A stretch of DNA of 34,643 nucleotides from a virus. Position 1 is the stretch's first letter. The number at the start of each line of letters is the position of its first letter. A model generated the notes under the pieces. The model did not search any database. It was not told the DNA's origin and worked only from the letters and a program-made list of their open reading frames with translations. The stretch covers positions 1-34,643 of the IMG/VR virus record IMGVR_UViG_3300030061_003813. The stretch is one strand, 5' to 3'. Both the position numbers and the translations under genes were made by a program. Below are positions 3,729-29,812 of the stretch, piece by piece.

Positions 3729-4082
3729 ATGTTCGGTGCAATCAAACATCTGATTCCTCAGCCTCATGGTTACATGGATTCAGATCAACGCTACAACGTT
3801 GGCTTGACTTGGATTGACCAAGAAGGCCTCACTGATTTTCACAACCTTCAGATTCAATACGTTCGCAATAACGAGCGTCTTGCTATCGAAAACGGTGAAC
3901 CTCAACCTGATGGCAGTTGGGCCTACAAAGAAACAAACGGTACTGTTCACACAATGAGTGCAGAACGTGTCAATGCTTTCATGGCAAAGACGCAAGAACA
4001 TGCAACAATTATGTGTTCAATGCTCGACAAAATCAACGCAGCATCAGGAGAAACTCTTGACGCTACTGCTTCTGTTGTTTAA
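3729..4082 (+). CDS. Hypothetical protein (117 aa)
   Basis: Start at ATG 3729 (MFGAIKHLIPQPHGYMDSDQ); the frame is open further upstream only because it runs through the tRNA. Mixed alpha/beta with a glycine-rich centre (NGEPQPDGSWAYKETNGTVH) and a helical C-terminus. The leader CTCATTTCTTATC belongs to the recurring start context. No family recognised. Confidence 0.75.
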   Translation: MFGAIKHLIPQPHGYMDSDQRYNVGLTWIDQEGLTDFHNLQIQYVRNNERLAIENGEPQPDGSWAYKETNGTVHTMSAERVNAFMAKTQEHATIMCSMLDKINAASGETLDATASVV

Positions 4083-4120
4083 CCTCTAGCCAGATCGCTT
4101 GGTAACCGATCTGTTCGAGG
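4083..4120 (+). other. Hairpin between stop codon and terminator
   Basis: CAGATCG (4091-4097) pairs with CGATCTG (4107-4113) around a 9-base loop, and CCTC (4083-4086) can pair with GAGG (4117-4120). It lies right after the stop of the 3729 gene and 9 bases before a rho-independent terminator. It could stabilise the mRNA 3' end or form part of a leader; no specific RNA class is recognised. Confidence 0.45.
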
Positions 4121-4182: not shown

Positions 4183-4470
4183 ATGACACGCAGAAAATCT
4201 CAATCCAAATTCAATGTTGGTGATCGTGTTATGCACAAATCAACTGACATAAGTGGATTTAAAAGCCCATTGCCTCCACGTACAAAGCTTGGTGTTATTC
4301 AACAAATTGAATACAAATCAAATGCTAGAGGTGCATTAATGCCTTGGCTCAAAATTAAATGGGATTCTTCTTATCATTCTGAATGGCATATGACAATGCG
4401 TGTTGTTTTGGCTCCAGATCAGGAAACGGTTGATGCTGTTGTACAGAATAAACAAGAGAAAATCAATTGA
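4183..4470 (+). CDS. SH3-like/KOW-type hypothetical protein (95 aa)
   Basis: Basic N-terminus followed by FNVGDRVMHK (residues 10-19) and a later GVIQQIEYK strand, the pattern of small SH3-like barrels of the KOW kind in which a G-D-x-V turn opens the fold. It may bind RNA, DNA or protein. Its stop lies 8 bases before the thyX ATG, so it is likely in the thyX transcript. Fold assignment is inference. Confidence 0.7.
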   Translation: MTRRKSQSKFNVGDRVMHKSTDISGFKSPLPPRTKLGVIQQIEYKSNARGALMPWLKIKWDSSYHSEWHMTMRVVLAPDQETVDAVVQNKQEKIN

Positions 4471-27671: not shown

Positions 27672-28406
27672 GTGTCTACTTTAATTACCAATCTTCCTCC
27701 GGTTAAAGTATGGGTGCGTAAAGAATATCTTCGCGATCTTCGTGATGGTCATGGTGAATATACTTTGGGTTATTGGACTAGTGTAAAATCTATTCCTGGG
27801 CGTGTGTTTTATTTTGAAACGTTTCTTCCAGAATATGGAGCTTTGTTTGACAAACTACCCATTTCTGCTTTTTTGCTTTGGGACTCAGACTCTCCTGATG
27901 CTCCTGAAACACCAGCACCAGATTTACCTCTAGAAGAATTACAATTTTGGAATTGTTTTAGTTATGACATTACCACCCTGGAAAAAAATCTTACGTTCAC
28001 AATGGGATGGGAAATCAGAACCAAAACCCACGGTACTATCCCTGGCGAATATTTGTTTACTATTGACAGCTTTAATGGCGACCGCTCTAGGACTGATATC
28101 TCTTTCGCAGAGACGCCAGATGAACACAAATCCTTCAATATTATTGGGTTGCCGAATGGTCAAATTGCAGCGTATCCCAACAACAGATGCCGTCTTGCTG
28201 ACCCTTCTTTGTCCCCCGAGACGTTAAAACAACCTGACTTTCTTGTCTCAAGTCGATATTTTCAAGTTGAAAGTCCCAATGCAAAATGGGGGCGCCTTGG
28301 TGAATCAGAAGAATATTTCTGGGAAACAAAAACTGAGCAAAACAAAAAACCAAATGAGTATATGCTTTTTATTCCAGAGAATGATCAAGAAGAATTTGAC
28401 CGGTAG
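27672..28406 (+). CDS. Hypothetical protein, probable virion or tail accessory (244 aa)
   Basis: GTG start at 27672. Beta-rich first 110 residues (VKVWVRKEYLRDLRDGHGEY, GRVFYFETFLPEYGALFDKL), an acidic Pro-rich linker (DSDSPDAPETPAPDLPLEEL), then a second beta region and a charged end. Pattern resembles cyanophage proteins encoded near baseplate or fibre genes; no firm function. Confidence 0.72.
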   Translation: MSTLITNLPPVKVWVRKEYLRDLRDGHGEYTLGYWTSVKSIPGRVFYFETFLPEYGALFDKLPISAFLLWDSDSPDAPETPAPDLPLEELQFWNCFSYDITTLEKNLTFTMGWEIRTKTHGTIPGEYLFTIDSFNGDRSRTDISFAETPDEHKSFNIIGLPNGQIAAYPNNRCRLADPSLSPETLKQPDFLVSSRYFQVESPNAKWGRLGESEEYFWETKTEQNKKPNEYMLFIPENDQEEFDR

Positions 28407-28433: not shown

Positions 28434-28580
28434 ATGCAAGAGATTCTTACTAATCCTATTACTTGGATTATTATTGCAGCAGCTTCTGAAATTATTGCTT
28501 TATCTCCCTTAAAAGATAACAGCATTATTCAAGTTGTATTAAAGGCTGTGCTTAAGCTTAAGCCTTCTGTAAAAAAGTAA
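28434..28580 (+). CDS. Small membrane protein, zero-frame product of a -1 frameshift pair (48 aa)
   Basis: ATG 28434: MQEILTNPITWIIIAAASEI, then IALSPLKDNSIIQVVLKAVL and a basic end SVKK. One membrane helix near residues 8-24 with a basic C-terminal tail facing the cytoplasm; holin-like in size but unproven. The last codons GTA AAA AAG are followed immediately by TAA and form an A-AAA-AAG slippery heptamer. A fraction of ribosomes should shift to make a 104 aa fusion with the next frame. Confidence 0.72.
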   Translation: MQEILTNPITWIIIAAASEIIALSPLKDNSIIQVVLKAVLKLKPSVKK

Positions 28581-28634
28581 AAGGCATCACTCCTGACGAT
28601 GCTGTGTTTCTTGCACAGTGGTCGTTACGGAGTG
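28571..28634 (+). promoter_or_regulatory. Programmed -1 ribosomal frameshift signal (slippery site plus stem-loop)
   Basis: Heptamer A-AAA-AAG at 28571-28577 in the correct phase (gtA AAA AAG), followed directly by the zero-frame TAA. After a 10-base spacer comes a stem-loop: CACTCC (28588-28593) with GGAGTG (28629-28634), TGACGAT with GTCGTTA (one bulge, two G-U), and CTGTG with CACAG around a 7-base loop, about 18 pairs in all. The -1 frame continues open into 56 more codons that have no ATG upstream of residue 34. Confidence 0.75.
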
Positions 28635-28747
28635 ACAAACAACGCATTAAAGATGAAATAAAACGTCGTAAAAATATGTCTTTAACAAGTCATCGAATTG
28701 ATGAAGCTATTCGTAAATACAAAGAAGAAACAGGATGGGATGATTAA
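28577..28747 (+). CDS. -1 frame extension of the 28434 gene (56 aa C-terminal part)
   Basis: Read in the -1 frame from the slippery site: VKGITPDDAVFLAQWSLRSD, then KQRIKDEIKRRKNMSLTSHR and IDEAIRKYKEETGWDD, a well-formed charged helical domain. In-frame stops at 28553-28561 exclude an earlier start, and the only independent start would be GTG 28604, inside the stem-loop, which would cut off the natural-looking ITPDDA. Fusion to the membrane segment gives 104 residues. Function unknown. It overlaps the minus-strand gene at its end by 4 bases. Confidence 0.65.
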   Translation, partial: VKGITPDDAVFLAQWSLRSDKQRIKDEIKRRKNMSLTSHRIDEAIRKYKEETGWDD

Positions 28748-28902
28748 TCATCTAATGCCTGGAACCAAAAGATAAATCCATCATTTGCTTCAACCCAACG
28801 TTTGGTTTTATAAGCATCTTCTTTTTCCATTGTCTCGCATTTGCGCGTCTTGCCACACTCCCAACAAACGTTGACACGAATGGGTTTATCTTTATTTTTC
28901 AT
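28744..28902 (-). CDS. Small zinc-finger-like protein (52 aa)
   Basis: MKNKDKPIRVNVCWECGKTR, then KCETMEKEDAYKTKRWVEAN and DGFIFWFQALDD. CWEC and a further Cys (KC) give three of the four ligands of a small zinc knuckle; His is absent. Its ATG overlaps the upstream TGA (ATGA, 28899-28902), so it is coupled to the membrane protein. Convergent with the frameshift gene. Confidence 0.65.
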   Translation of the reverse strand: MKNKDKPIRVNVCWECGKTRKCETMEKEDAYKTKRWVEANDGFIFWFQALDD

Positions 28903-29087
28903 TGTATTAATTTATTTACTAATAAAACTATAGAAGCAACACCCCAAAAACCCAATCCAAAAATTGCTATTGCAATTCCTTCATACGTTAAAAACTTTTT
29001 TGGTAATTTCGTATTTAAGGTCTCGGTCTTCTTTACCGTTCCATCCTCCGTTGATTCTGTAACAACAGGCGTCGAATCCTTGTCCAA
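28899..29087 (-). CDS. Small single-helix membrane protein next to the lysin (up to 62 aa)
   Basis: The convincing part is the C-terminal 38 residues: KLPKKFLTYEGIAIAIFGLG, then FWGVASIVLLVNKLIQ, one membrane helix preceded by basic residues. No ATG exists in frame; the TTG at 29087 is the only listed start and places 107 bases inside the GH19 gene. Being right after the lysin and coupled to the next gene, it may be a holin, pinholin or spanin-like membrane partner. Start is uncertain. Confidence 0.5.
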   Translation of the reverse strand: MDKDSTPVVTESTEDGTVKKTETLNTKLPKKFLTYEGIAIAIFGLGFWGVASIVLLVNKLIQ

Positions 29088-29661
29088 GACAAATACCTAA
29101 TAGATCGTTATCTTTAATCCATGTTAAAGCAGATCTAAAAGGATAATGGTCAGTTACATACTCACATCCGCGTTCCACGATAAGTGGATCATGTAATTCA
29201 GCTGCCAGGCGCGTGTAGTTGTACTTTCCAGTTAGCATTAGTACACCTGTACCTTTATACTTAGGCCCGTCATTTGGGCCATTACCTAGATCAGCACGGT
29301 TGTTATAAGCTGTGCCATCGGCAATTTCTTTCATCCAACGAAAGTTTCCTGTTTCATGCATGAGATTAGCAATCAACATGCACATGGCCTCTCTGTGCTG
29401 ATCAAAACCTGTTGTCATCAACAACTTGTTGAAATCACCACAAAAAGTTTCATCAAAATTACTGGCTTGATATCCAGTAAGTTTCTGCATAATGTCAGGT
29501 GTGATGATTTTTCCTGAGGGATTTGCAGGACCTGCACGATACAGATCCGCAAATTCATCAAGTTGTTCATCTGTCAAAACAGATTCAAGCCAATTCCAGG
29601 CAGCAAGCTGGTGAGATTCCTCCTTGTAATACTTAGCTGCTTTGCTCAGGTTGATCGTCAT
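28981..29661 (-). CDS. GH19 (chitinase-type) endolysin (226 aa)
   Basis: GH19 hydrolase that would cut peptidoglycan glycan strands during lysis. Family motifs: LIANLMHETGNFRWMKE, with catalytic Glu103 in H-E-T-G; GPKYKGTGVLMLTGKYNY (family G-P-x-Y-x-G-R-G-x-x-Q-L-T-G-x-x-N-Y, here with Leu-Met for Ile-Gln); and a C-terminal CCYRINGGWNG. The first 45 residues (YYKEESHQLAAWNWLESVLT) are a helical segment seen in some phage lysins. Start at 29661 because GAGGAA lies just upstream; an upstream in-frame ATG at 29769 would overlap the neighbouring gene. No signal peptide, so it needs a holin. Confidence 0.9.
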   Translation of the reverse strand: MTINLSKAAKYYKEESHQLAAWNWLESVLTDEQLDEFADLYRAGPANPSGKIITPDIMQKLTGYQASNFDETFCGDFNKLLMTTGFDQHREAMCMLIANLMHETGNFRWMKEIADGTAYNNRADLGNGPNDGPKYKGTGVLMLTGKYNYTRLAAELHDPLIVERGCEYVTDHYPFRSALTWIKDNDLLGICLGQGFDACCYRINGGWNGKEDRDLKYEITKKVFNV

Positions 29662-29812
29662 TGGTTTCCTCTTCTTCGGGTTCGTATTCCAGGCTATCAA
29701 CATATTGGACCAAAAGTTGGCTAGAAAACTGAATAAGGTTTCCATCATTTGAACTGCGTGCTGCAGCAAAAGAATTAATGGCTGACACTAATTCAGATTT
29801 TTTACAGGCCAT
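29633..29812 (-). CDS. Small acidic-tailed protein (59 aa)
   Basis: MACKKSELVSAINSFAAARS, then SNDGNLIQFSSQLLVQYVDS and LEYEPEEEETNDDQPEQSS. A helical N-terminal half with a strongly acidic tail. Overlaps the lysin start by 29 bases, so it is probably coupled to it. No family recognised. Confidence 0.65.
   Translation of the reverse strand: MACKKSELVSAINSFAAARSSNDGNLIQFSSQLLVQYVDSLEYEPEEEETNDDQPEQSS

Follow-up and report, generated by a model that had tools for sequence, protein, structure and literature searches.

A short gene in the viral DNA analyzed here very probably gives rise to two proteins through a programmed -1 ribosomal frameshift, the longer of which, designated A-B, would join a small putative membrane peptide (A) to a charged extension (B). 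The evidence for this conclusion is comparative and includes no expression, ribosome-profiling, or peptide data. A preliminary description of the locus had proposed such a frameshift, and the comparison with related loci strongly supports this reading. In the proposed mechanism, ribosomes that terminate normally at the stop codon of A would produce a 48-aa membrane peptide, and a fraction would slip back by one base with both tRNAs on A_AAA_AAG, aided in the clade to which the DNA belongs by a hairpin 9 nt downstream. The slipped ribosomes would bypass the stop of A in the -1 frame and produce the 104-aa fusion A-B. Both the occurrence of slippage in cyanobacterial cells and the ratio of the two products are inferred.

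The predicted frameshift site in the window

The DNA analyzed (the window, 34,643 nucleotides) is part of a 58,154-base IMG/VR virus record. Nucleotide searches of the window against a phage collection returned no useful match, and a search of Rfam returned no relevant match. From its sequence relatives, which are cyanophages, the host is inferred to be cyanobacterial. The features of the locus are as follows:

27672-28406: ferredoxin-family gene directly upstream of A (phrog_3704, E 1e-90)
28434-28580, plus strand: zero-frame gene A, encoding a predicted 48-aa membrane peptide, MQEILTNPITWIIIAAASEIIALSPLKDNSIIQVVLKAVLKLKPSVKK (phrog_22542, function unknown), with its TAA stop at 28578-28580
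28571-28577, plus strand: slippery heptamer A_AAA_AAG, read directly, abutting the zero-frame stop
28578-28586, plus strand: spacer of 9 nt, its first bases being the TAA stop of A
28587-28635, plus strand: downstream hairpin of 21 pairs with two single-base bulges and a 5-nt loop, the likely frameshift stimulator
28577-28747, plus strand: -1 frame extension B, 56 codons encoding a predicted charged helix, VKGITPDDAVFLAQWSLRSDKQRIKDEIKRRKNMSLTSHRIDEAIRKYKEETGWDD, with its TAA stop at 28745-28747
28981-29769, minus strand: endolysin gene, the convergent neighbor (phrog_181)

On the minus strand, an ORF of 52 aa that contains a CxxC motif (28744-28902) converges on B and overlaps its last bases.

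Direct reading of the window gave GTA AAA AAG TAA as the last codons of A, placing the heptamer in register for tandem -1 slippage and in contact with the stop codon, as had originally been reported. The -1 frame is closed just upstream by a TAA at 28559-28561 and is open from 28562 to the stop of B, and the coordinates of the ORFs bear out a 56-residue tail and predicted products of 48 and 104 aa. The positions given in the preliminary description were accurate overall to within a base or three. Its downstream stem is also real, but comprises 21 pairs rather than about 18 at 28588-28634, and follows the heptamer after 9 nt rather than ten. It had noted that the -1 frame has no ATG before residue 34, and no start codon of B is conserved across clades, but it did not mention a possible start in this frame, a GTG at 28604 that forms the tenth codon of B.

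With 11 copies in the window, AAAAAAG is rarer than in shuffled sequences, and the heptamer by itself is thus unremarkable. When reading frames were assigned manually, the copy at 28571-28577 was the only one in the X_XXY_YYZ register inside the longer listed ORFs. What makes the locus more than chance is its conservation over about 150 loci.

The hairpin had a predicted folding energy of -28.2 kcal/mol in a fold of 28581-28650 (z -4.3), and 0/200 shuffles were equally stable. In the clade of the window, it outperformed synonymous-codon shuffles in 13/13 members (p <= 0.025), and four of its pairs, as determined by fixed-structure counting, carried changes on both sides. Judged from these sequences, the hairpin is selected beyond the protein sequence, in this clade only. 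RNAalifold, applied to all 12 sequences of the clade, found little because the register of the inner pairs differs between subgroups, which is why the hairpin was assessed by counting pairs in a fixed structure and by synonymous shuffles of each sequence. In the podovirus and siphovirus clades, conserved structure was weak or absent, and a putative stimulatory RNA structure at the expected 5-10 nt downstream of the slip site is supported in the clade of the window only.

Conservation of the heptamer and the -1 frame

Searches with A, a search with B, and annotated records together yielded 151 distinct A loci (the A-first set). The heptamer A_AAA_AAG (129 loci) or G_GGA_AAG (3 loci) was present in 132 of these, at the stop of A or one codon earlier, and B was found in the -1 frame in 132/132. 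At eight of the 132, which an over-strict motif filter had missed, B was assigned by reading; these included one locus in which B carries an in-frame internal deletion (L062) and one in which B is cut by the end of the contig (L121). Among the 19 loci with neither heptamer, 17 also lack B. One exception, L067, keeps B with G_AAA_AAG and so still has the tetramer A_AAG, the most shift-prone in E. coli (PMC4066793). The other, L183, from a Cyanobium genome contig, keeps B with a non-standard C_CCC_AAG and is unexplained. At L183, A and B stand in the usual -1 relation (4001-4087), and the locus is possibly a decaying prophage or has a different slip site.

A further search used B alone as the query, so that its loci were chosen neither by A nor by the heptamer (the B-first set; 65 distinct loci, partly overlapping the A-first set). 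A was found upstream in the other frame, with the heptamer in register, at 65/65 loci, the heptamers being A_AAA_AAG at 59 (including L248), C_CCA_AAG at 5, and G_GGA_AAG at 1. None of the 65 B-first or 151 A-first loci had A and B in one frame, an arrangement that the preliminary description had said would refute its reading. It had also proposed looking for the heptamer, the stem, and both frames in relatives; the heptamer and frames are kept there, the stem in the clade of the window only. Parsimony on a tree of A placed 10 changes in the heptamer and 8 in B, with none in opposing directions. This tree excludes the heptamer region and, A being a short gene, is weak, with only 4 well-supported independent pairs.

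Annotated relatives of A occur in S-CBS1, S-CBS3, KBS-S-2A, S-EIVl, S-B28, 7B11-B, WH11-B, and an uncultured Oinezvirus. The first seven, all isolates, have the same frame relation as the window. None of their annotations joins A and B, which instead appear as two genes, in truncated form, or not at all, so that the annotation should be corrected. The Oinezvirus-like group (L095, L135-L156) has A without the heptamer and without B.

The heptamer is also conserved beyond what the encoded residues would explain. Its Lys-Lys pair is always AAA AAG in heptamer loci, and the codon before it always ends in A, even though the residue at this position is V, P, A, G, S, Q, E, or T (eight kinds). The codon usage of each locus would predict A_AAA_AAG in about 6% of cases, and among the remaining genes at these loci it was found in 14/453 (3%) xKK triplets. 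In the B-less Oinezvirus-like group, the same Lys-Lys is encoded by AAG AAA or AAG AAG, indicating that lysine coding does not need the heptamer. By sequence comparison, then, the heptamer is in the right register and is conserved as nucleotides.

B contains 43% charged residues in the window and matched no known family in Pfam, PHROGs, or the PDB. AlphaFold2 modelled it as mainly one long helix, with low confidence (pTM 0.36-0.39). Outside the clade of the window, a short MSIxAPW-like motif terminates many B tails. For B, dN/dS was estimated at about 0.11 in the clade of the window and 0.19-0.21 in siphovirus groups, and by this measure B is under purifying selection.

It remains conceivable, but very unlikely, that A and B are separate genes, with B starting at a codon such as GTG 28604 or by re-initiation and the A-rich run serving only as lysine codons. 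A GTG is present at codon 10 of B in 12/13 members of the clade of the window, and the GenBank records of S-CBS1, S-CBS3, and S-EIVl give B a gene of its own from an internal start. However, no start codon is common to the clades, an independent start of B in homologues being another result that had been named in advance as a refutation; near the slip site, a start is missing from most B frames of siphoviruses and podoviruses, and the internal ATG annotated in S-CBS3 is not kept by all of its relatives. In the clade of the window, the residues between the slip site and the GTG are conserved, and the variable columns of this stretch fall on -1-frame third positions (9) more often than on first (4) or second (1) positions, implying that the nine codons before the GTG are translated too. 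B was never found without an in-register upstream A in the B-first search, and conservation of the heptamer as nucleotides would not be needed for lysine coding. Based on these alignments, B is a conserved coding -1 frame without a start of its own, with the caveat of the codon-10 GTG in the clade of the window.

That the fusion arises because the RNA polymerase, and not the ribosome, slips on the A run appears extremely unlikely. The window does have six consecutive As, but in bacteria such slippage is usually associated with runs of >7 A (PMC3711429). Moreover, two of the three heptamers, G_GGA_AAG and C_CCA_AAG, contain just three As yet keep B and the X_XXA_AAG register, which argues against slippage during transcription. 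This form, common to all three heptamers, is the one that tandem slippage by the ribosome would require. Homopolymer runs are error-prone, and the pattern might also be put down to faulty sequencing or assembly or to gene decay, but this can be dismissed for practical purposes: the frame relation is repeated in about 150 distinct assemblies and seven isolate genomes, and selection on B is not that of a decaying gene. In light of the comparative data, chance or sequencing error is untenable.

Gene A and its putative lysis context

A single hydrophobic stretch spans residues 8-26 of A and contains an invariant Ser-Glu; it is followed by an amphipathic segment (residues 29-42) and a basic C-terminus, and the net charge of A is +3. 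These assignments derive from hydropathy only, and membrane insertion and topology are inferred. Searches of Pfam, PHROGs, and the PDB did not name A; none calls it a holin, and the best match is phrog_22542, of unknown function. Given its single hydrophobic segment, amphipathic segment, basic C-terminus, and adjoining endolysin, A would most likely be a small holin-like membrane peptide of a lysis cassette. As far as hydropathy can tell, it fits the class III holins in being a small protein with one predicted transmembrane segment and a basic C-terminus, and it is, like them, encoded with an endolysin. We consider it probable that A is a lysis peptide, but this function is inferred from gene neighborhood and hydropathy, and lethal membrane lesions are likewise unproven.

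Comparison of the loci establishes the linkage to an endolysin, a homologue of which lies <=1.5 kb downstream of A, on either strand, at about 115/151 loci. In the siphoviruses, B runs up to or into the probable start of the endolysin gene, so that frameshifting ribosomes would reach this start and translational coupling is possible. The overlap is ~29-32 nt at most siphovirus loci (L092 around 4340-4371). Where B has been lost, at L048, L056, and L069, 0-5 nt separate the stop of A from the start of the endolysin match. The gene usually found upstream of A encodes an 81-aa protein that is hydrophobic in an N-terminal stretch and charged over the rest, and is a candidate further lysis gene. 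It lies directly upstream of A at, for instance, L091 (3754-3996), L092 (3714-3959), and L098 (3769-4014); the protein belongs to phrog_26178 or phrog_12220 and has weak matches to hemolysin-type families.

Distant homologues of A are found in the endolysin region of P60, S-CBP1 to 4, S-CBP42, S-SRP01, and DSL-LC07, and P60 gp39 matched phrog_22542 at 2e-7. The P60/S-CBP cyanopodovirus proteins (phrog_15106; L264, L265, L266, L267, L269, L270, L271) resemble A-B in having a charged C-terminal tail, but this tail is encoded in one frame without a heptamer, has no sequence likeness to B, and makes them always the long form. Dual output is thus not universal, and the B-less, P60-like, and heptamer-bearing homologues indicate that short-only, long-only, and frameshifting forms exist in the family.

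The frameshift could also be real and its role not lysis, with A acting, for example, as a virion or host-takeover membrane peptide encoded near the endolysin. We regard this as unlikely, although it cannot be set aside: B is without a match to known families, and in S-B28, 7B11-B, and WH11-B it is a terminase or endonuclease gene, not an endolysin, that follows A/B. In T7, however, this TerS-adjacent position is occupied by the holin gene 17.5, and the frequent downstream endolysin, as well as the location of the P60-like homologues, also points away from a role outside lysis. If A is indeed a lysis peptide, A-B would most likely be the less abundant isoform; its charged tail would probably lie in the cytoplasm, and by entering oligomers of A the fusion would adjust the timing or manner of membrane opening. 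Such a regulatory role for B is inferred, and the idea that A-B regulates A remains tentative.

Comparison with known recoding and lysis genes

Tail-assembly chaperones of the lambda G/GT type are isoform pairs produced by -1 slippage and conserved across diverse dsDNA phages (PMC3556154). The A/B gene is like these in pairing a short zero-frame protein with a C-terminally extended isoform via X_XXY_YYZ, but it adjoins an endolysin or small terminase gene instead of lying upstream of a tape-measure gene, A is a predicted membrane peptide, and no sequence relation was found. The preliminary description had drawn this parallel while treating the zero-frame product as a membrane peptide; the A/B gene is not a tail-chaperone gene but adjoins an endolysin gene. 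An assignment as a tail-assembly chaperone gene was rejected: the neighbors in the window are the ferredoxin-family gene and the endolysin gene, with no tape-measure gene next, and the isolates have endolysin or terminase/endonuclease neighbors.

Use of A_AAA_AAG together with a downstream stem is known from E. coli dnaX and IS3-family cassettes (PMC3711429, PMC4066793). The window has both elements but, unlike these systems, no upstream Shine-Dalgarno-like stimulator that could be seen by eye. The predicted frameshift product A-B is the longer one, as in IS3 elements and unlike in dnaX. A single lambda gene yields two lysis-membrane proteins, S107 and S105, in a fixed proportion by means of two start codons, and these proteins differ at the N-terminus. 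Like these proteins and the products of dual holin/antiholin genes, A and A-B are two predicted isoforms from one gene that share most of their sequence; unlike S107 and S105, they would differ at the C-terminus through frameshifting, and antagonism between them is hypothetical. A class III holin example from a cyanophage, the holin-like ORF70 of MaMV-DC (PMC12843271), is similar to A in its small size, one transmembrane segment, charged C-terminus, and lysis context, but the paper describing it does not mention frameshifting.

Full-text searches of the literature for frameshifting in connection with holins, cyanophages, or slippery sites turned up no report of this gene; only open-licence papers were covered, and an earlier report is not excluded. 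The part of the main recoding review available to us (PMC5009743) contains no mention of holin.

With these results, cyanophages of abundant marine picocyanobacteria gain a recoding gene that is conserved yet unannotated, and programmed frameshifting is assigned to a membrane gene linked to lysis. It is possible, though at present speculative, that many cyanophages, siphoviruses and podoviruses alike, time lysis by frameshifting, with A as the holin and A-B as an antiholin or co-holin. If so, this would be a holin pair generated by C-terminal recoding instead of dual starts, and, should A prove to be a holin, the timing of cyanophage lysis would be testable through single silent changes in a seven-base site.
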